64,000 nt of DNA from the NCBI GenBank assembly GCA_030583705.1, contig CP129471.1:734506-798505 (forward strand), read 5' to 3'. Within the stretch, counting starts at the first letter, position 1, and each line of letters starts with the position of its first letter. Source of the DNA: Patescibacteria group bacterium. Lineage in GTDB: Bacteria; Patescibacteriota; Patescibacteriia; Patescibacteriales; Patescibacteriaceae. Made by a program: the position numbers and the translations under genes. The notes under the pieces were generated by a model. It made no database searches and was not told where the DNA came from. It saw only the letters and a program-made list of their open reading frames with translations. Shown here piece by piece: positions 2,843 through 38,465 of this stretch.

Positions 2843-4210
2843 ATGCAAGAAAAACCAGAAAACTTAATGGAAAAAATTATCTCCTTATGCAAAAGGCGCG
2901 GTTTTATTTTCCCTGGCTCGGAAATCTATGGTGGTCTGGCTAATAGCTGGGATTATGGTCCATATGGAGTTGAATTAAAAAACAATATTAAAAAACTTTG
3001 GTGGAAAACCTTTGTGACAGATAAAGACGATATGACGGGCCTAGACAGTGCTCTTTTAATGAACACCAAAGTTTGGGAAGCTAGTGGTCATTTAAGTCAT
3101 TTTACCGATCCCTTGGTGGAAGACGTTAAAACTCATGAAAGATTTAGATTGGATCACTTTCTGGAATACAACGGAGTTAACATTCAAGGCCTTGATCAGG
3201 CAGCCATGATTGATAAGCTTAAAGAACTCGGATTAAAAAGCCCTAAAGGTAATGACCTAAGTGAGCCAAAACAATTTAACATGATGCTTAAAACCCATTT
3301 GGGACCAATAGAGGAAACCGGCAGCTTGGTTTATTTTCGTCCGGAAACAGCCCAGGGTATTTTTGTTAATTTTAAAAACATCACTGACACCATGCGTCTT
3401 AAACCACCTTTTGGGGTGGGGCAAATCGGCAAAGCTTTTCGTAACGAAATAACTCCTGGTAACTTTATCTTCCGAACTAGAGAATTTGAACAAATGGAGA
3501 TTGAATACTTTATCCCAAAACCAACTAACGACCAAGCCTGGCAAGAAGTTTTTGAAGACTGGAGAGAAGCGATAAAAAAATGGATTATAAGCTTGGGTGT
3601 TGATTATGAAAAGTCAATTAAGGAAAACGAAATCTCGGAAAATGAGAGAGCACATTATTCCAAAAAGACCATTGACTTTGAATACCACTATCCTTTTGGC
3701 ACCAAAGAGCTTTATGGGCTCGCCTATCGCGGAGATTATGATTTAAGTAACCATAAAATAAGTTATACGAACGAAAAAGGAGAAACTTATGTACCGCATG
3801 TTATTGAACCATCTATGGGTGTAGACCGTACGGTACTGGCTGTTTTACTCTCCGCCTACCAAGAAGAAAAAGTTAAAGAAGATACTAGAAAAGTACTTAA
3901 ACTACCCATCTCTTTAGCCCCGGTTAAAGTGGCCATCTTCCCCCTTTTAAGAAATAAGCCGGAGTTAGTTAAAAAGGCCAAAGAAGTCTATGACATGATC
4001 AGAAAAGACTACCCTGCTGAATTTGATGACAACGGTAACGTCGGTAAACGCTACCGAAGACAAGACGAAATTGGTACACCATATTGCATAACCATAGATT
4101 TTGACACTTTAGAAAATGATGAAGTAACAATAAGGGATAGGGATACAATGGAACAAGCTAAAGTTAAGATTCAAGAATTACCTGATTTTCTAAAAAATAA
4201 ACTTTCATAA
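2843..4210 (+). CDS. glyS: Glycyl-tRNA synthetase (single-chain, class II)
   Basis: 455 residues, the usual length of the dimeric alpha2-type GlyRS that charges tRNA-Gly with glycine. The N-terminus (RRGFIFPGSEIYGG, WDYGPYG) is diagnostic. Class II core motifs follow: RPETAQGIFVNFKN, RNEITPGNFIFRTREFEQMEIEYF in pieces, and motif 3 near EPSMGVDRTVLAVL. The last ~100 residues (APVKVAIFPL, GKRYRRQDEIGTPYC) form the anticodon-binding domain. This is the eukaryote/archaea-like type, not the alpha2beta2 GlyQ/GlyS type. The M16 protease gene follows after 6 bases, so both share the promoter at 2779. Confidence 0.96.
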   Translation: MQEKPENLMEKIISLCKRRGFIFPGSEIYGGLANSWDYGPYGVELKNNIKKLWWKTFVTDKDDMTGLDSALLMNTKVWEASGHLSHFTDPLVEDVKTHERFRLDHFLEYNGVNIQGLDQAAMIDKLKELGLKSPKGNDLSEPKQFNMMLKTHLGPIEETGSLVYFRPETAQGIFVNFKNITDTMRLKPPFGVGQIGKAFRNEITPGNFIFRTREFEQMEIEYFIPKPTNDQAWQEVFEDWREAIKKWIISLGVDYEKSIKENEISENERAHYSKKTIDFEYHYPFGTKELYGLAYRGDYDLSNHKISYTNEKGETYVPHVIEPSMGVDRTVLAVLLSAYQEEKVKEDTRKVLKLPISLAPVKVAIFPLLRNKPELVKKAKEVYDMIRKDYPAEFDDNGNVGKRYRRQDEIGTPYCITIDFDTLENDEVTIRDRDTMEQAKVKIQELPDFLKNKLS

Positions 4211-4216
4211 AACAAT

Positions 4217-5497
4217 ATGTACAAAATCCAAAAACTTTCTAATGGTTTAAATCTTTTAACCGCACCCCAAAAAGGTGCTAAGACTACTGCCGTTTTAGTA
4301 ATGGTCGCTACCGGTTCAAAATATGAAGATCGCCGTACCAGTGGTCTATCTCACTTTCTTGAACACATGTTCTTTAAAGGAACAACTAAAAGACCGGACA
4401 CCTTAACTATTTCCACTGCCCTAGACAGAGTAGGCGGAGAATATAATGCCTTTACTTCTAAAGAATATACCGGGTACTGGGTTAAAACTGCCGGCAAGTC
4501 CGCCGAACTAGCCTTGGATGTTATCGCCGACATGCTCTTAAACTCCAAGTTTGAGGAAGAAGAAATAGCCAGAGAAAAAGGGGTTATCATTGAAGAAGTT
4601 AATATGTATCTAGATAACCCAATTATGAGAGTTGGAGAAGTTTTTGAAGAATGTCTATATGGAGATACCCCTGCCGGTTGGGACACTATTGGGACAAAAG
4701 AAACAATTAACGCTTTTAAGAGAAAAGATTTTATAAAATACTACCAAAGTCAATACAAAACCGGTAATTCTTTTGTTTGTCTAGCTGGCTATATACCACC
4801 CAAAGTAAAAAGCTTAGTGGAAAAACATTTTAATAAATATCCCAAGGGTCGCGCTCTACCTAAACAAGAAGTTAAAGAAAAACAAAACCAAGCACAAGTA
4901 AAATTGGAATATAAAAAAACAGATCAAGCACACTTAGTGCTAGGTGTACGCACTCCCGCCTATGGTAATCCAGATTACGCAGCTCTTAAAATGATCTCTT
5001 TAGCCTTGGGGGGCTCTATGAGTTCAAGGCTGTTTTTAAACTTAAGAGAAAGAAACGGACTTTGTTATTATGTCCGCTCGGGCTATGAAGCCTACACAGA
5101 TACCGGCTACCTAGCCACCCAAGCAGGAGTACCGGTGGATAAGATTAAAAAAGCTATAGCGATTATTGTGGAAGAATATAAGAAAATGGCGAAAGAAAAA
5201 ATATCCGATCAAGAACTTAAAAAGATTAAACAGTTTGTCTCCAACAAGACTCTTTTAAAACTTGAAGGAGCGGATCAGGTAGCCGGTTGGTATGGACAAC
5301 AACTAGTTATGCTTAGCCAACAAAAAGGCAAAAAACTTAAGCCAACTACCCCGTCAGAACACCTGAAAAAAATGAAAGCCGTTACCCCAGAAGACATCCA
5401 AAGAGTAGCCAAGAAAATCTTCACTACAAAGAACCTCAACCTGGCCATTATCGGACCATATAAGAAAACAGAGGAATTTAGAAAGTTATTGAAATAA
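4217..5497 (+). CDS. M16 family zinc protease (processing-peptidase-like)
   Basis: 426 residues, one M16 N-domain plus one C-domain. The inverted zinc motif HFLEH is at residues 46-50, and the distal glutamate lies in GVIIEEVNMY (E126/E127). The C-terminal half has GLCYYVRSGYEAY, the conserved R/Y region of the substrate chamber. Family members degrade or process short peptides; bacterial homologues resemble PqqL/YmxG. No signal peptide is visible, so it is probably cytoplasmic. It is co-transcribed with glyS (6-base gap) and followed by a strong terminator. Confidence 0.93.
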   Translation: MYKIQKLSNGLNLLTAPQKGAKTTAVLVMVATGSKYEDRRTSGLSHFLEHMFFKGTTKRPDTLTISTALDRVGGEYNAFTSKEYTGYWVKTAGKSAELALDVIADMLLNSKFEEEEIAREKGVIIEEVNMYLDNPIMRVGEVFEECLYGDTPAGWDTIGTKETINAFKRKDFIKYYQSQYKTGNSFVCLAGYIPPKVKSLVEKHFNKYPKGRALPKQEVKEKQNQAQVKLEYKKTDQAHLVLGVRTPAYGNPDYAALKMISLALGGSMSSRLFLNLRERNGLCYYVRSGYEAYTDTGYLATQAGVPVDKIKKAIAIIVEEYKKMAKEKISDQELKKIKQFVSNKTLLKLEGADQVAGWYGQQLVMLSQQKGKKLKPTTPSEHLKKMKAVTPEDIQRVAKKIFTTKNLNLAIIGPYKKTEEFRKLLK

Positions 5498-5511
5498 TAG
5501 GAATGAAAATA

Positions 5512-5547
5512 AAAAAAGAGAGCTTCCATTTGGTCGTTCTCTTTTTT
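5512..5547 (+). terminator. Rho-independent terminator after the M16 gene
   Basis: A 10-base-pair stem AAAAAAGAGA / TCTCTTTTTT with T-rich flank on both strands. It can serve the M16 gene (+) and the hypothetical gene at 5550 (-), which ends 2 bases away. Confidence 0.8.
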
Positions 5548-5549
5548 GT

Positions 5550-6077
5550 TTAGATTAAAGGTATGCCAAATGGTAATTGCCATTTAGAAATACCTGTTCT
5601 CAAAACTTTAATTTTTACCGCCTTTTTATCTAAAGAAAAAGCAAAAAATTTCATTTCTTTAGGGCCCTGGAGAATAGCTACTGGACCATTAAGGATAAGA
5701 GAGCAATACATCTTTTTATTATCATACTCTCTTATAAAACCAACTTGGTATTCTTGACTAAGATCTTCGGGGCATAAAATAGAACAAGTTTGCCATCCAA
5801 AGTTAGTTTGCCAAAAGTTACCCCAAAAAGTATCTCTAGGCCTGGCTTTTAAATCTCCCGGCGCCTCAACTTTCATCATCATCTGTTGATCATTAATGAA
5901 AGGATCTTTAATCCAGGTCCACCAATGAGACCTCTTTAAAGAAAAAGGTTCCCATAATAGTTTTACGAGCAACCAAAGTGGCCAGTAATATAAAGAAGGT
6001 AAGGGTCTTACTCTCCAAAGCATCCAAGACTCCAAAAATATTTTAAAGAAAAGATTGGTGATATTGAAATTTTTCAA
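5550..6077 (-). CDS. Hypothetical protein, promoter shared with DGR target
   Basis: 175 residues, no family recognised. The N-terminal ~45 residues are rich in Trp, Leu and Phe (FLESWMLWRVRPL, YYWPLWLLVKLLW) and could form a membrane-associated helix; the rest looks globular and Trp-rich. It has a consensus promoter about 60 bases upstream that is nearly identical to the promoter of the DGR target gene at 7601, so the two may be co-expressed. The stop is TAA at 5550-5552. Real coding is likely given the promoter and terminator but the role is unknown. Confidence 0.6.
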   Translation of the reverse strand: MKNFNITNLFFKIFLESWMLWRVRPLPSLYYWPLWLLVKLLWEPFSLKRSHWWTWIKDPFINDQQMMMKVEAPGDLKARPRDTFWGNFWQTNFGWQTCSILCPEDLSQEYQVGFIREYDNKKMYCSLILNGPVAILQGPKEMKFFAFSLDKKAVKIKVLRTGISKWQLPFGIPLI

Positions 6078-6135
6078 TTTTACTCTCTTTTTGAATTTTT
6101 TAAAACTTTTTATTGAATCAATTTAATTTAAAGTA

Positions 6136-6179
6136 CATTATCTAATTATATCACACACAATGAAATAAGTCAATAGGTG
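6136..6179 (-). promoter_or_regulatory. Promoter module, copy 1 (44-bp repeat)
   Basis: Read on the minus strand it has TTGACT (6168-6173), a 17-base spacer ending in TGTGTGA, and TATAAT (6145-6150). The whole 44 bases match 7674-7717 at 41 positions and in the same orientation. It points at the hypothetical gene starting at 6077. The open frame of the avd-like gene begins immediately on its upstream side. Confidence 0.8.
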
Positions 6180-6217
6180 AGGATTTTGAGCATATAATAC
6201 GAGCTGAAAAGTTACTA

Positions 6218-6436
6218 TTGGAAAATATGGAATTATTACTGGAAGCTTCTTTTGCCAATAAATCAGAAAAGTTAAAGCCTCTCCTCGGCGCTCGGATTAA
6301 AATTGAAGCTTTTAAGCGTTTTGTTAGACTCATGAAAGAAACGAACATTATTCAAGAAAAACATTACCTGCGCCTTACAAAATCAACCGAGGAAATATCA
6401 AAAATGACGAACGGTTGGATTAAATATCTCTCCTAA
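6218..6436 (+). CDS. avd: Avd-like DGR accessory protein, N-terminally short
   Basis: 72 residues from a TTG start; an ATG is available at 6227, and the frame is open back to 6164. The sequence matches the C-terminal two-thirds of the four-helix-bundle Avd protein, which binds the DGR reverse transcriptase and template RNA: helices around ARIKIEAFKRFVRLMKE and EKHYLRLTKSTEEISKM, then the family's terminal NGWIKYL. Avd proteins are usually about 110-130 residues, so the first helix is missing or the gene is a remnant cut where the promoter repeat at 6136-6179 begins. It converges on the TR, an unusual orientation. Assignment is family recall supported by the adjacent TR. Confidence 0.62.
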   Translation: MENMELLLEASFANKSEKLKPLLGARIKIEAFKRFVRLMKETNIIQEKHYLRLTKSTEEISKMTNGWIKYLS

Positions 6437-6440
6437 AGAT

Positions 6441-6467
6441 GAACGCTCTCTGAGTTAGAGAGCGTTC
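6441..6467. repeat. Hairpin next to the DGR template repeat
   Basis: GAACGCTCTCT and AGAGAGCGTTC form a perfect 11-base-pair stem with a 5-base loop, 4 bases from the TR. There is no T tract on either side, so it is not an obvious terminator. Its stem base GAACG/CGTTC is shared with the hairpin next to the VR. Confidence 0.75.
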
Positions 6468-6471
6468 ATGA

Positions 6472-6589
6472 AACTACCTCACGGCAACGCAAGTTGTCGT
6501 TGGCATTGTCAGGATTGTACCAATTGACGTTGAACTTGTCGTCGTTCCAGTTGGCGTTCAGCACGTTGCCGTCAGAATTACGGGAACCG
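6472..6589 (-). repeat. DGR template repeat (TR)
   Basis: 118 bases matching the VR at 6864-6981 with 20 mismatches. On the minus strand 19 of the 20 fall on adenines of this copy; the other lies 3 bases from the outer edge. In the VR frame this copy would encode mainly AAC/AAT (Asn) codons at the changing positions, e.g. GSRNSDGNV and NDNLRCREVV, the signature of a DGR template. The 22 bases at the 3' end (6472-6493) are identical in both copies, as expected for the site where homing starts. The copy lies 274 bases downstream of the VR on the same strand, as in other DGRs. Confidence 0.95.
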
Positions 6590-6807
6590 CCTATAAGAGT
6601 CTTTCCCCATCCTCAACACCTGCCTCACTCGCAAGCGAGGCATGAGTTATCCGAATCATTCGGCAGTCATACAAAGTACCGCTTGAAACAACAAACGGAC
6701 CTTCTTTAGGAAAAGACACGTAGTTTCTTATAAAGGCAAACCGCTACCCGGAATCGGACCGGTTTATTAGCCATTTTTAATATAACAAAAATATACAAAA
6801 AATAAAA
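6590..6807 (-). ncRNA. Probable 5' part of DGR template RNA region
   Basis: No gene is credible in this 218-base stretch; the open frame crossing it on the plus strand is an artefact of the TR. On the minus strand it leads into the TR and contains small hairpins, TGCCTC/GAGGCA (around 6620-6642) and CCGAA/TTCGG (around 6650-6663), plus AACCG/CGGTT near 6740-6765. It is likely transcribed with the TR, but the RNA ends are unknown. Confidence 0.4.
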
Positions 6808-6835
6808 GAACGTTTTTGCTAAAGCAAAAACGTTC
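6808..6835 (-). terminator. VR-proximal hairpin: DGR cruciform and/or terminator
   Basis: A perfect 12-base-pair stem with a 4-base loop begins 19 bases after the target gene's stop. On the minus strand the stem is GAACGTTTTTGC/GCAAAAACGTTC followed by a T-rich run, so it can act as a Rho-independent terminator. Its place and shape also match the hairpin that DGRs such as Bordetella phage BPP-1 need just downstream of the VR for target recognition. Both roles are compatible. Confidence 0.8.
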
Positions 6836-6854
6836 AAGATAAAAAGGTACAAGT

Positions 6855-7601
6855 CTAAAGTGTAACTACCTCACGGCAACGCAAGCTGCCGTCGGCATCG
6901 TCAGGATGGCACCAAACGACGCGGAACTCGTCGTCGCGCCAGTGGGCGATCAGCACGAAGCCGCCAGAATCACGGGAGCCGGAACACAGGGTGATATTCT
7001 CGATATCCAAGTGCTTCCCCGTTTCTTTAAAGTAACCCAACTCCAAAATCATTCTTTCGAGTAGGGTAATCCCTTTAATACCCTTAGCTTTCAGATCATT
7101 AGCTGACATATTCTTAAATTTCTCATCTGCCTCCACTGTGTCTCTTACCCATATAGCGTAAGTCTGATCCGAGGTGCGATCATTTTGAGTTACAGATTCA
7201 TCAAGGTCATCAGTATATTTCCAACATGGAAAATTACTTTGACAAACCTTAAAAACCTGGTTGAGGGTTAACCCTTCAGCAATAACTACAAGCCGGGTAA
7301 AATCAGCTTTTTTTTCGGGAATAGCAATCTTGGATATATCAACCTCTTTACCAAAAAATTCTCGGTAGAAATCCTGCCATTTAAGAAGCTGTTGATCATA
7401 TAAGGAACCTTTGACATACTTATCCCAAACCAATCTCATATCTTTGAGTAAATTATTTTTCTCTCCGATCACTGACTGAGCATCTGAATGACTTAAAAAA
7501 TTCGGGATGACATCCAGCATAGTTTTTTGGATATCTTTTAGTTGCGCTATACTGGCGCCAACTACTAGTTTTGGGACTGTTCCATGTGTTTTCTTTTTCA
7601 T
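6855..7601 (-). CDS. DGR target protein with C-terminal variable lectin-like domain
   Basis: 248 residues with a clear Shine-Dalgarno (AAGGAG) before ATG. The last ~45 residues (LCSGSRDSGG, DDEFRVVWCHPDDADG, LRCREVV) match the C-type-lectin-fold core of DGR variable proteins; the VR covers 39 codons and ends at the stop. The N-terminal ~190 residues are soluble, partly helical and unrecognised; LLERMILELGYFKETGKHLDIEN just before the VR is typical of CPR target proteins in my recollection (given here only as motif LGYFKETGKHLD). No signal peptide or membrane helix is visible, so export is unclear. Fifteen residues differ from the TR-encoded version, with the reading frame intact. Confidence 0.9.
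   Translation of the reverse strand: MKKKTHGTVPKLVVGASIAQLKDIQKTMLDVIPNFLSHSDAQSVIGEKNNLLKDMRLVWDKYVKGSLYDQQLLKWQDFYREFFGKEVDISKIAIPEKKADFTRLVVIAEGLTLNQVFKVCQSNFPCWKYTDDLDESVTQNDRTSDQTYAIWVRDTVEADEKFKNMSANDLKAKGIKGITLLERMILELGYFKETGKHLDIENITLCSGSRDSGGFVLIAHWRDDEFRVVWCHPDDADGSLRCREVVTL
6864..6981 (-). repeat. DGR variable repeat (VR)
   Basis: The 3' end of the target gene. Relative to the TR, 19 of about 32 template adenines are replaced by G, C or T, giving 15 amino-acid changes: Asn to D, F, I, H, R, V or S, Asp to Gly (twice), Lys to Glu and Tyr to Cys. No non-adenine site is changed except one at 6978, at the 5' boundary in gene sense. The Leu-Arg-Cys-Arg-Glu end is invariant. Confidence 0.95.
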
Positions 7602-7673
7602 GGACTATTCTCCTTATTTTTAAAGAATTTACCTGAATAAGATTGTCCTTTTTCAGGATGCAAGAATACCTCG

Positions 7674-7717
7674 CATTATCTAATTATATCACACCAAACG
7701 AAATAAGTCAATAGGTG
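7674..7717 (-). promoter_or_regulatory. Promoter module, copy 2, of the DGR target gene
   Basis: On the minus strand TTGACT (7706-7711), a 17-base spacer ending GGTGTGA, and TATAAT (7683-7688) lie about 75 bases before the target gene's ATG. It is 41/44 identical to copy 1 at 6136-6179. The 5' leader that follows contains a 6-base-pair hairpin CCTGAA/TTCAGG at 7632-7657. Confidence 0.85.
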
Positions 7718-7749
7718 TTAGGGGTTATTAGCTAATATTAGCCAATACC

Positions 7750-7778
7750 TTGTTTTATCTTTTGCTCTGTGATATGAT
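7750..7778 (+). promoter_or_regulatory. Promoter of the helicase-nuclease gene
   Basis: TTGTTT (7750-7755) and TATGAT (7773-7778) are 17 bases apart, with TGTGA just before the -10. The ATG follows 9 bases after the -10, with AGGAG only 3 bases before it, so the leader is extremely short or transcription starts at a second site. Confidence 0.5.
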
Positions 7779-7787
7779 TTAGGAGTT

Positions 7788-10730
7788 ATGAAAAAGCTTG
7801 ATATACTCTCCTCTCTTAATGATTCGCAAAAAAAAGCCGTTACTCACCAAGACGGCCCTTTGCTTATTGTAGCCGGCGCCGGTACTGGTAAAACCACGGT
7901 TTTAATTAACCGCCTAGCTTGGCTGATCCTTGAAAAAGGCGTTGATCCTGAAGAGATTCTTTTAACCACCTTTACAGAAAAAGGTGCCAATGAACTTGAA
8001 GAAAGGGCAGATAAACTTTTACCCTATGGTTATGTTAATCTTTGGATCAATACCTTCCACGGTCTATGTGAAAGAATTTTACGAGACCACGCTTTAGATA
8101 TAGGTTTATCTCCAAGCTTTACTCTTTTAAACCAAACCGAACAATGGATTTTTATAAGAAAACACATTACCGAACTAGGTCTTAATTATTACAAACCAAT
8201 CGGTGACCCGACAAAATTTATTCATGAAATAATCTCCCACTTCTCTCGTCTTAAGGACGAAAATATTGCCTCGTCTAAATATTTGGAATACGCACAAAAC
8301 CTTAAAGACGGGAAAGAAAGTCTCTTGAGTAGTAAAGATAAAGATAAAAAAAATAATGATGAAGAAGATAACCAAGCAGCCGAAGCCATGGAGCTTTCCC
8401 GAATTTATGAGTTAGCTGAGGCTTATCATTCATATAATCATTTAATGATTCAAGAAAACTTTTTAGATTTCGGGGATCTTATTGTTAAAACCATTGAACT
8501 TCTAAAAACCAGACCAAACATCTTAAAAAAATATCTTTCACGCTTTCGCTATATCATGGTAGATGAGTTTCAAGACACCAATAGTGCGCAGTATGAGCTT
8601 ATTAAACTCTTATCTGCTCCGAATAATAATTTAGTAGCAGTCGGAGATGATGACCAAAGTATCTATCGTTTCCGTGGTGCCGCCCTATCTAATATCATGC
8701 AATTTAAAGATGACTTTCCTAAAGCCAAACAAGTTGTTTTAACAGATAACTACCGCTCCGGACAAACTGTCCTTGATCATGCCTACCAACTAATCACCAA
8801 CAACAACCCGGATCGCTTGGAAGTAAAACTTAAACTTAACAAAAAACTAAAAAGCCAAACAGACTTTTCCGGTGAAGCCATTTATCTGGACTTTAATACC
8901 GAATACCAAGAATGCTTGGGAGTAGCCGAAAGAATTAAACTCTTAAAAGAAAGTGGCTTAGCTTCAAGCTGGGCACAAATCGCTGTTTTGGTTAGAGCTA
9001 ATGACACGGCCGATAAATTTGTTAAAGAATTGTCTCGACAAAATATCCCCAACCACTTTGTTTCTCTAAAGGGCCTTTATTACAAACCGATTATTCTAAA
9101 CGCTTTAGCCTATTTTAAACTCTTAGATCATTATCATGAACCAGCCGCTCTTTACCGCGTTCTGCGTATGCCCGCCTTTAGACTTAACCATGACGACCTC
9201 TTACTCCTTAACCTTTGGGCCAGAAAGAACGTTTTATCTCTCTTTGAAACCCTTAAACAAGCGGAAGCTGTACCTAAATTAAGTAAAGAAGCAGTTAAAA
9301 AGATTAATCATCTTCTGTCTTTAATTACTAGGCATACGGCCTTGGTTAATGATAAAAAAACCTCACGGGTCTTTTTGGCAGTGGTCCATGATTGTTTAAT
9401 TCCCTACCTAGATCAAGATCTTGATCATCTATCTTTTTCCTATCTTAACCAGTTTTATCATAAGATTAAAAAATTTGAAGAAGCAGACGAAGCTGGCACC
9501 CTAAAAGACTTTTTGGCTTTAATTAATCTGGAGATGGAAGCCGGCGAAACCGGTGGACTACGCTTTAATTTTGATGATGCTGATACGGTTAAAGTTATGA
9601 CTGTTCACGCCGCTAAGGGCTTGGAATTTGAACATGTCTTTATCGTTAACGCCGTTAATAAGCGCTTTCCCACCATTAACCGTTCGGATAAATTACCAAT
9701 ACCAGATGCTTTAGGTGTTAGTGCTGAACAAAATGTCCAAACTCATATTGCCGAAGAAAGACGTCTTTTCTACGTTGCCATGACCAGATCTAAAAAAGGT
9801 CTTTACGTAACCGGTGCTAAAGACTATGGTGGGGTACAAAAGAAAAAACCTTCAGCCTTTGTAGAAGAAGCCAAATTATCTACCTTGTCCGCTACTGGTG
9901 AAGAAGAAGACGAGCTTAGCCGCGATCTTAAAACTCTTAATAATCCGGAAGAAAAAACTAGCCTACCGTTACCCGTTAGCTACTCTTTTTCACAACTTGA
10001 GCTTTTTGAAAAATGCCCTTGGCAGTATAAGCTGATTTATCTTTTAAAACTACCTCAAGAAGAAAATCATTATTTTGTTTTCGGTAGAGTAATCCATTCT
10101 GTCTTAAAACAATTCTTTTTGCCTTTAACCGAAATTAACTCACAACAAAAAAATCTCTTTGGCCAAGCAGAAAAATCTTCAATTGATTTATCTTTAAAAA
10201 AACTCTTAGCTCTTTATGAACAGTACTGGATTAATAACGGCTACGAGGATAGACAACAAGCCGAGGATTATAAAGAAGCTGGACTAAAAATGCTTAAACA
10301 AATGCACGAAGAGATGGCGGAAGAAAAACCGGTTTGGTTGGAAAAGAAATTTAATCTGCCGCTTGGTAAATACAAATTAACCGGTGTTATTGACCGTGTA
10401 GATAAACTACCAGACGGCACTTATGAAATTATTGATTACAAAACAGGAAAAGCACCGGCTAAACTCACGCCGCAAAATAAAAAACAGCTTATTCTTTATC
10501 AGGCAGCCCTTGAAGAAATCTTTAAAATGAAAGTTAGCAAACTAACCTTCTACTATCTTAAAGACAATGAAAAAAAATCTTTTACCGCCAAAGGCGAAGA
10601 AATTATTACTCTAAAAGAACGTCTACTTGAATTAATAGAAGAAATTCAAACCTTTGACTTTACCGCCAGACCAGAAATCATGTGTAAAAACTGCCCCTAT
10701 AAGAGCCTGTGTGAATTTATTAGGATATAA
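7788..10730 (+). CDS. UvrD/Rep-family helicase fused to PD-(D/E)XK Fe-S nuclease
   Basis: 980 residues. An SF1A helicase fills the first ~680: Walker A GAGTGKTT (30-37), Walker B/motif II in MVDEFQDTN, VGDDDQSIYRFRGA, VMTVHAAKGLEFEHVFI and VAMTRSKKGLYV. The C-terminal ~250 residues are a RecB/AddB-type nuclease: C743 (FEKCPWQY), catalytic IIDYKTGK (D883, K885), and C966, C969, C975 in CKNCPYKSLC, which together give the four-cysteine Fe-S cluster arrangement. It probably processes DNA double-strand ends for recombination, acting as AdnB- or AddA-like subunit or alone. No partner subunit is adjacent. Confidence 0.9.
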   Translation: MKKLDILSSLNDSQKKAVTHQDGPLLIVAGAGTGKTTVLINRLAWLILEKGVDPEEILLTTFTEKGANELEERADKLLPYGYVNLWINTFHGLCERILRDHALDIGLSPSFTLLNQTEQWIFIRKHITELGLNYYKPIGDPTKFIHEIISHFSRLKDENIASSKYLEYAQNLKDGKESLLSSKDKDKKNNDEEDNQAAEAMELSRIYELAEAYHSYNHLMIQENFLDFGDLIVKTIELLKTRPNILKKYLSRFRYIMVDEFQDTNSAQYELIKLLSAPNNNLVAVGDDDQSIYRFRGAALSNIMQFKDDFPKAKQVVLTDNYRSGQTVLDHAYQLITNNNPDRLEVKLKLNKKLKSQTDFSGEAIYLDFNTEYQECLGVAERIKLLKESGLASSWAQIAVLVRANDTADKFVKELSRQNIPNHFVSLKGLYYKPIILNALAYFKLLDHYHEPAALYRVLRMPAFRLNHDDLLLLNLWARKNVLSLFETLKQAEAVPKLSKEAVKKINHLLSLITRHTALVNDKKTSRVFLAVVHDCLIPYLDQDLDHLSFSYLNQFYHKIKKFEEADEAGTLKDFLALINLEMEAGETGGLRFNFDDADTVKVMTVHAAKGLEFEHVFIVNAVNKRFPTINRSDKLPIPDALGVSAEQNVQTHIAEERRLFYVAMTRSKKGLYVTGAKDYGGVQKKKPSAFVEEAKLSTLSATGEEEDELSRDLKTLNNPEEKTSLPLPVSYSFSQLELFEKCPWQYKLIYLLKLPQEENHYFVFGRVIHSVLKQFFLPLTEINSQQKNLFGQAEKSSIDLSLKKLLALYEQYWINNGYEDRQQAEDYKEAGLKMLKQMHEEMAEEKPVWLEKKFNLPLGKYKLTGVIDRVDKLPDGTYEIIDYKTGKAPAKLTPQNKKQLILYQAALEEIFKMKVSKLTFYYLKDNEKKSFTAKGEEIITLKERLLELIEEIQTFDFTARPEIMCKNCPYKSLCEFIRI

Positions 10731-37013: not shown

Positions 37014-37236
37014 GGTCGGGATATCAAAGCCTCAGGTATATCTTAAGTGATACACCGAGTAGGTTAGCTTAAATAGCAAATAAGTATAATTCGGGCGGTT
37101 AGCATCTAGCCGCTTCATAAAAGATGAGTTTTTGTCCGTCTTGAAGACCAAAAGAACAAGACTTAAAGACAAAGACTGAATAAATCGAAATAATAAAGCT
37201 CAACCTTGGAGCCGCCGTTGACGGCTCCTCCCGATT
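37014..37236 (+). ncRNA. Retron-like msr-msd RNA (predicted)
   Basis: A 223-base structured region between promoter and reverse transcriptase. Ends pair: GGTCGGGA (37014-37021) with TCCCGATT (37229-37236), six Watson-Crick and two G-U pairs, as retron a1/a2. An AGC with a candidate branch G at 37029 lies next. Then hairpin 37035-37056 (one mismatch), hairpin 37095-37113 (8 pairs, one G-U), a long interrupted stem 37127-37143 with 37157-37177 (10 plus 6 pairs) as msd-like arm, and hairpin GGAGCCG/CGGCTCC 37208-37228. Pairings are read by eye; retron identity is inferred from these and the RT. Confidence 0.65.
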
Positions 37237-37262
37237 CTTTCTTTAAAAATCAAACCTTAAAA

Positions 37263-38465
37263 ATGGAAAAAATTAATGTTCCGTACAGTGGATTCAAATT
37301 ACTCATGGATCTTACGGAATATAAAGATCCATTTGAGTTAAGGGAAATAATTTCCGAGGCAGAATCAAGTTACACAATCGCCTCAATAAAAAAAAGATCT
37401 GGGGGAATAAGAAAATTATCAATCCCATCAGATGATTTAAAAGAATTCCAAGGAAGATTCTTAAGAATGTTCTTAAGAAGAATTGAAAAAAGAGGACTGT
37501 TGGATGAAGATTTAACCGCCGGTAAAAGCAAGGGGCCAATAGTAAATGCTCATATACATAATTTTTTATACATGGGCAATGTAATTAAGATTGACCTTAA
37601 AGATGCCTATACTTCGGTCAAAGACTCGGTAATAATAGATGCCCTAAGAAGCATCTTGGTAAACGAGGTAAATGAATGTCGAGAACTAGCGAAAAAAAGA
37701 GCTGAGAAAAGAATTTCATTCAAAAACTATCCAAGACCCCCTATACTCTCCAATAGAAAGGTGCCGTGGTTTAGATGGCTTATCAGACAAGAAGGTAAAG
37801 AGTATTTGATCAATACATATATAGAAGACTTCTTATCCGAGTTAAAACCTCTAATTACCAACGAGGGTTGTTTACCACAAGGTCCACCCACTTCTCCTTT
37901 TTTAATGGCTCTGGTACTTACCCATCTTAATGTTATCAATGACATAAAAAGATTCCTTTCTGAGAATACAAAAGGCAAATGCCTTGTAACAATATATGCT
38001 GATGACATTGTTATATCATCAAGTAGCGACCAACGAGACAAGATAAATGAGATAATAGAAATTATTGAGTCAAACGGAATCCTAAAAGTTAATAAGGAAA
38101 AAACAAGGGTATACTCCAAAAAAAGAGGGGGTGCCCTAATAACTGGTTTAAGAGTCAGTGAACAAAATGTCTCCGGAGAAAAGCTTTCTTCTTTGATTAA
38201 CACTATGAAGAAAAAATCTGTCAGGAAAAAAGCTAGACAAAATCTTGAGCAAAATAAATCTTTTAAAGTTAGTTCAGTTGGCTTTCCCAAAAAAATCATA
38301 AAAAAAGTCAGAGGAATAATCAACAGGGCAATTTATGATAAAACTCTTACCAACACAGCAAAAGGCTATATCAGTTTAGCCCGAGGAGTTTATAAAAATC
38401 AGACTATGCCCAACCAACTGAAAAAAGTCATTTCAAAATTTGAAAACAATAAAGCCACCTCTTAA
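37263..38465 (+). CDS. Retron-type reverse transcriptase
   Basis: 400 residues from ATG 37263; the longer TTG start at 37206 would lie in the RNA hairpin. RT motifs: GGIRKLSIPSDDLKEFQ (47-63), retron-type NAHIH (95-99), IDLKDAYTSV (D111; DAY where most have DFF), LPQGPPTSP (204-212), active site YADD (245-248), LKVNKEKTR and the retron VTG-like ITGLRV (293-298). The thumb ends with a basic region. Retron RTs copy their upstream RNA into msDNA and act in phage defence with an effector. The DGR RT signature (QGNxxSQ) is absent. A group of unclassified retron-like RTs is the main alternative. Confidence 0.85.
   Translation: MEKINVPYSGFKLLMDLTEYKDPFELREIISEAESSYTIASIKKRSGGIRKLSIPSDDLKEFQGRFLRMFLRRIEKRGLLDEDLTAGKSKGPIVNAHIHNFLYMGNVIKIDLKDAYTSVKDSVIIDALRSILVNEVNECRELAKKRAEKRISFKNYPRPPILSNRKVPWFRWLIRQEGKEYLINTYIEDFLSELKPLITNEGCLPQGPPTSPFLMALVLTHLNVINDIKRFLSENTKGKCLVTIYADDIVISSSSDQRDKINEIIEIIESNGILKVNKEKTRVYSKKRGGALITGLRVSEQNVSGEKLSSLINTMKKKSVRKKARQNLEQNKSFKVSSVGFPKKIIKKVRGIINRAIYDKTLTNTAKGYISLARGVYKNQTMPNQLKKVISKFENNKATS

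Follow-up and report, generated by a model that had tools for sequence, protein, structure and literature searches.

CPR bacteria commonly carry DGRs, which are usually counted through their RT. The locus described here lies in a window of 64,000 nucleotides, which is the whole stretch of DNA that was analysed. It shares with the BPP-1 DGR (mtd, avd, TR, brt) the TR/VR logic, an Avd gene, adenine mutagenesis and a hairpin near the 3' end of the VR. However, its RT is absent, its Avd is truncated and lies on the strand opposite to the TR, and its target is unrelated in sequence to that of BPP-1. It has been reported that DGR cassettes occur in varied orders and that some DGRs have two TRs (PMC6642488). 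A survey that described a CPR-restricted RT clade also stated that targets remote from an RT would be missed (PMC8144416). Remote variable proteins have been described for cyanobacterial DGRs and, as in the window, they are encoded far from any RT gene. The cyanobacterial remote genes have homology to the TR of a DGR in the same genome, whereas the window target has its own TR and no match to another one (PMC7517822).

Degenerate, RT-less DGR loci were previously found beside intact ones in Thiohalocapsa PB-PSB1. Trans activity was proposed where a VR matched the TR of another locus, and population variants with an intact RT were proposed for the remaining cases. These loci resemble the window locus in that the RT is missing or broken near the target and an intact DGR is present elsewhere in the genome. 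Transposons and MITE-like repeats were blamed in PB-PSB1, whereas no mobile element was seen at the window locus (PMC10907252). In addition, several orphan VRs of PB-PSB1 match the TR of another locus, whereas the TR and VR of the window lie at one locus and have no match but each other. RT-less DGR loci are already known from PB-PSB1, and the window locus is a cleanly resolved further case.

CPR DGRs such as L009 (Kazan bacterium), L011 (Giovannonibacteria) and L012 have a homologous target and the TR position in common with the window locus. Like it, they also have an opposite-strand Avd facing the TR, a hairpin after the TR and adenine-only TR/VR differences. The window locus differs from them in lacking the RT and the N-terminus of Avd. 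In this study, we found that the window locus carries a genuine DGR signature and is probably an incomplete, silenced DGR.

The TR/VR pair, its target and the flanking repeats

The features of the locus are collected in Table 1. The TR and VR lie in a direct repeat of 83% identity (6469-6589 and 6861-6981, spacing 392). The sequence-only reading had reported 20 differences between them, 19 of which fall on minus-strand TR adenines, and our re-count over 118 nt gave exactly the same coordinates and numbers. The TR has 32 adenines, and the concentration of differences on them is highly significant (hypergeometric P = 1.5e-12). No difference was found at the 31 C or the 29 G of the TR, and one was found among the 26 T. 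This sole non-adenine difference, which the reading had placed at the edge, is a T to C change 4 nt from the 5' edge. The core of the pair has no change at any of its 85 non-adenine sites. The mutated adenines occupy codon position 1 (10 of 12) and codon position 2 (9 of 19). As had also been claimed, the VR frame is still open and 15 residues are altered. The repeat ends sharply at GTAGTT, past which the flanking sequences are unrelated, and 6 bases separate the VR end from the stop codon of the 248-aa frame. The TR 3' end is TGCGTTGCC. The TR encodes the peptide GSRNSDGNVLNANWNDDKFNVNWYNPDNANDNLRCREVV, which by eye resembles DGR lectin variable regions and is a lead.

Table 1. Coordinates of the features of the DGR locus and its borders in the window.
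Feature	Position	Strand	Remarks
175-aa ORF	5550..6077	minus	downstream of left promoter copy, where relatives carry RT
Left 44-bp direct repeat copy	6136..6179	minus	sigma-70 promoter TTGACT-17-TATAAT; abuts Avd truncation
Truncated Avd gene	6164..6436	plus	open frame; first ATG 6227; Avd homology from about 6179-6190
13-bp hairpin	6439..6469	minus	directly after TR; fold z = -6.6
TR	6472..6589	minus	non-coding; 19 adenine-only differences to VR and one edge T/C
12-bp hairpin with T-run, terminator-like	6808..6835	minus	after target stop codon
DGR target (variable protein), 248 aa	6855..7601	minus	ORF and homologs; CPR DGR target family
VR	6864..6981	minus	3' end of target gene
Right 44-bp direct repeat copy	7674..7717	minus	73 nt upstream of target start codon

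These results indicate that the TR/VR pair is a genuine DGR signature. Mutagenic retrohoming, which the reading had proposed as the source of the pattern, is the right explanation. The clean non-adenine sites suggest that the last copying event was recent.

The target was described in the sequence-only reading as a 248-residue protein whose N-terminal part is unrecognised. This agrees with its open minus-strand frame and with the absence of above-cut-off matches in Pfam and NCBIfam. No credible hit came from the sequence profiles of Pfam, NCBIfam, PHROGs or PDB. Homologs were found in 17 related genomes besides the source genome. The named relatives are all from CPR or unclassified metagenome bacteria; one is from a Kazan bacterium (59% over the best segment), and others are from Yanofskybacteria, Giovannonibacteria and further groups. 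Together with the genome size, these relatives suggest that the window comes from a CPR organism. The full-length model of the target was unusable (pLDDT 39). An AlphaFold model of its C-terminal 179 residues, made from 11 sequences, was confident (pLDDT 81.5, pTM 0.83) and gave no significant structural match (best E 0.27 in PDB and 0.05 among viral structures). A herpesvirus C-type lectin ranked top in BFVD with E 0.05, below significance, and a mouse C-type-lectin domain was among the PDB matches with E 3. The Mtd/TvpA lectin fold, which the reading had expected in the C-terminus, was neither confirmed nor excluded by these searches, as there was no sequence match and no significant fold match.

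Solo homologs of the variable C-terminal domain were also observed on three putative viral IMG/VR contigs of 31-43 kb (L073 3653-4465, L074 3842-4477 and L075 3893-4408). No TR/VR repeat was detected within 4 kb of them, and no DGR RT was detected on these contigs. If variation at TR adenines is allowed for, about 90% of sites in the VRs of L073 and L074 match the TRs of this family. These observations raise the question of whether phage targets may be diversified by a host DGR.

The hairpin after the TR is a common feature. A strong hairpin starts about 0-25 nt from the TR end in nearly all of the 22 TRs compared, including those that face an antisense Avd and the one in the second DGR of the source genome. 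The TR-end hairpin may end or cap the TR RNA. An Rfam search gave nothing above threshold.

The 44-bp direct repeat brackets the unit 6180-7673 and forms a near-consensus sigma-70 promoter on the minus strand. The left copy is directed into the 175-aa ORF. The repeat was rejected as a dispersed mobile element because the whole genome contains only two copies. Three of the 44 sites differ between the promoter copies, compared with 0 of 85 non-adenine sites in the TR/VR core (Fisher P = 0.04). If the promoter duplication accompanied RT loss, this would weakly suggest that copying into the VR continued after the rearrangement. The contrast is weak because the changes are in the promoter spacer and the duplication may predate RT loss. 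Similar duplications were observed in two other cassettes. In L031, a second copy of the target promoter and start codon lies past the RT (126 bp, 98%, 5050-5175 and 7712-7837); it is located at the contig end and probably represents another target or a tandem cassette. In the second DGR of the source genome (L008), a copy of the target promoter and start with 80-85% identity also lies past the RT. Both cassettes are intact and keep the RT despite their duplicated promoters. We therefore read the left copy in the window as an older duplication at which the deletion ended.

Truncated Avd and the search for an RT

The Avd gene matched bAvd (E 7e-7) and DivGenRetAVD (E 8e-7). The bAvd match spans only model positions 39-106 of 107. 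Alignment and a genome search showed that helix 1, about 40 N-terminal residues, is absent and that the C-terminal two thirds are kept, so that no intact Avd is present at the locus. The remnant of 69 codons is open and is 45-48% identical to its homologs, which are about 50-60% identical to each other; this fits a recent loss.

No RT similarity was found across 4201-7800, and no DGR-type RT with the [LIV]GxxxSQ motif is present at the locus. The 175-aa ORF has a homolog in only one other genome of the family. This ORF, or a hidden or decayed RT beside the locus, was rejected as the enzyme because there was no RT similarity. The source genome, a single contig of 869,590 bases, has two RT genes, and an RT profile search detected a single DGR RT, 87 kb from the window locus. 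An RT at 37206-38465 (plus strand) of the window matched retron_St85_RT (E 3e-27, below the curated cut-off) and has the motif QGPPTSP. It was rejected as the missing DGR enzyme because it is retron-like, with an St85-type profile and this motif.

The sequence-only reading had called the DGR pair complete. This is correct for the TR/VR pair but not for the DGR, which has lost the N-terminal third of Avd and has no DGR RT. The recent activity that it suggested, if read as likely current, is not supported, given the truncated Avd and a DGR RT that is absent from the window and found only 87 kb away. The reading did not mention the truncated Avd beside the TR, the absent DGR RT or the 44-bp flanking repeats.

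The second DGR, at 827.7-829.6 kb of the genome (G000:C1:827.5-831 kb; L008 7516-10991), is intact. Its RT lies at 827.7-828.9 kb and has the motifs IGNLTSQ and YMDD, and its Avd is full. The cassette order is target, then Avd-TR-RT on one strand, and the target has a type IV pilin N-terminus and a FISUMP domain. Over 179 nt, its TR and VR differ at 15 adenines and at no other site. The RT shares 30-34% identity with the RTs found beside window-like TRs, and the TR codes for a domain unlike that of the window TR. Both TRs end in TGCGTTGCC with a strong hairpin immediately after, and this 3' sequence is ordinary within the TR family of the window. A distant TR serving the window VR was rejected, since an A-compatible scan matched this VR to the local TR only.

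Related loci and the origin of the window locus

Related loci were scanned for TR/VR pairs with adenine-compatible mismatches allowed. Among 21 other pairs, 19 had an adjacent RT and 2 ran off the contig end. Of the TRs compared, only that of the window lacked an RT although its contig extended far enough on both sides. The relatives have the target (VR) first, followed by the TR, by an Avd gene that faces the TR from the opposite strand and by the RT on the target strand (L009, L010, L011, L012, L014, L031 and L032). The window locus follows this plan as far as Avd and then breaks off. A single TR sometimes serves two VRs (L014, L070, L011 with L013, and L067 with L068).

RT-less targets without any TR were frequent (L033, L036, L037, L038 and L063-L066). 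In the same genus, genome G002 has a distant homolog of the target between the M16 peptidase gene and uvrD and lacks the VR, TR, Avd and RT there. In G009, the VR end of the target lies 46 bp from an RT fragment, and the TR and Avd are deleted. Since the RT-less homolog of G002 is at the equivalent site, decay at the window locus has parallels. Together with the RT-less targets, G002 and G009 suggest that targets in this lineage have repeatedly outlived the DGR machinery around them.

The gene content of the region between the M16 peptidase gene and uvrD (5500-7790 in the window) is variable across the genus. This spacer holds the DGR remnant and the 175-aa ORF in the source genome, several membrane-protein genes and the target homolog in G002, and an unrelated ORF in G003.

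The reading we favour, and regard as fairly probable, is that the locus is the surviving half of a CPR-type DGR that mutated its target recently and then lost its RT, leaving the VR frozen. Judging from the relatives, the ancestral order would have been target (VR), TR, opposite-strand Avd and RT. During copying of the TR RNA, the RT would have made errors at adenines. The resulting cDNA would then have taken the place of the VR in the 3' end of the target, so that 15 residues of the C-terminal domain were changed. The adenine pattern is seen directly, and we infer the copying process from established DGR biology. A later deletion would have removed the RT together with roughly 40 codons from the start of Avd, ending at the second copy of the target promoter. 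This deletion is visible in the anatomy of the locus, and the relatives suggest the direction of the change. The VR is most likely frozen, since the RT is gone and Avd is broken. The RT would have been lost recently, because the non-adenine sites of the TR/VR core are identical and the Avd remnant is still open.

An ordinary diverged duplication with no DGR is hardly credible as the source of the repeat pair, since 19 of 20 differences fall on the adenines of one strand, an Avd remnant adjoins the pair, and seven CPR loci show matching anatomy with an RT. It is very unlikely that a 1.5-kb fragment (truncated Avd, TR and target) was inserted whole in the M16-uvrD spacer, duplicating the 44-bp promoter, and that an RT was never present. 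The sharp, unique direct repeats flanking 6180-7673 and the variable gene content of the spacer within the genus would fit such an insertion. However, promoter duplications also surround the cassettes that keep their RT (L031 at 5050/7712 and L008), and the G002 homolog at the equivalent site favours an old resident cassette. We also considered whether other cells have an intact RT at this locus, with the contig representing one RT-less variant, or whether the contig was misjoined. Intact and disrupted DGR variants coexist in PB-PSB1 (PMC10907252), and DGR loci often break assemblies, as in L011 and L013, whose contigs break inside the VR. We judge this improbable: the genome is one contig, and the junction joins Avd to the promoter repeat. 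The flanks of the missing part have no repeat in common, so that nothing points to a simple repeat-driven misjoin.

Trans use of the window TR is possible. The RT and Avd of the second DGR would then use the window TR RNA and still diversify the window pair, which we regard as unlikely, with a small but real chance of being correct. The distant cassette looks functional from its RT motifs, full Avd and clean TR/VR pair, both TRs share the 3' sequence and the hairpin directly after it, and the TR/VR core is cleaner than the promoter repeat. For PB-PSB1, DGR loci within the genome were also proposed to act on each other in trans (PMC10907252). However, the trans cases of PB-PSB1 match the TR of the acting locus, whereas the window VR matches its own TR alone. 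The distant RT is only distantly similar to the RTs of window-like TRs, its cassette differs in order and in its FISUMP/pilin target, and the 3' sequence common to both TRs is nothing unusual in the window TR family. Moreover, the bRT-Avd complex of BPP-1 is recruited by the structured spacer that follows its own TR on the 3' side (PMC12875486). Such activity would imply that an unrelated DGR class, 87 kb away, supplies the RT and Avd that keep an RT-less TR/VR/target module variable, with TR recognition looser than in the BPP-1 model and one RT for two TR families. We consider this full scenario quite improbable. Trans activity, if true, would do away with the assumption that every RT is confined to its own template.

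RT-based searches miss the window locus, and its VR nonetheless keeps an unblurred record of mutagenesis. If the locus is inactive, as in the favoured reading of a DGR that lost its RT, it would be a clean snapshot of a DGR being switched off with its last variant kept.
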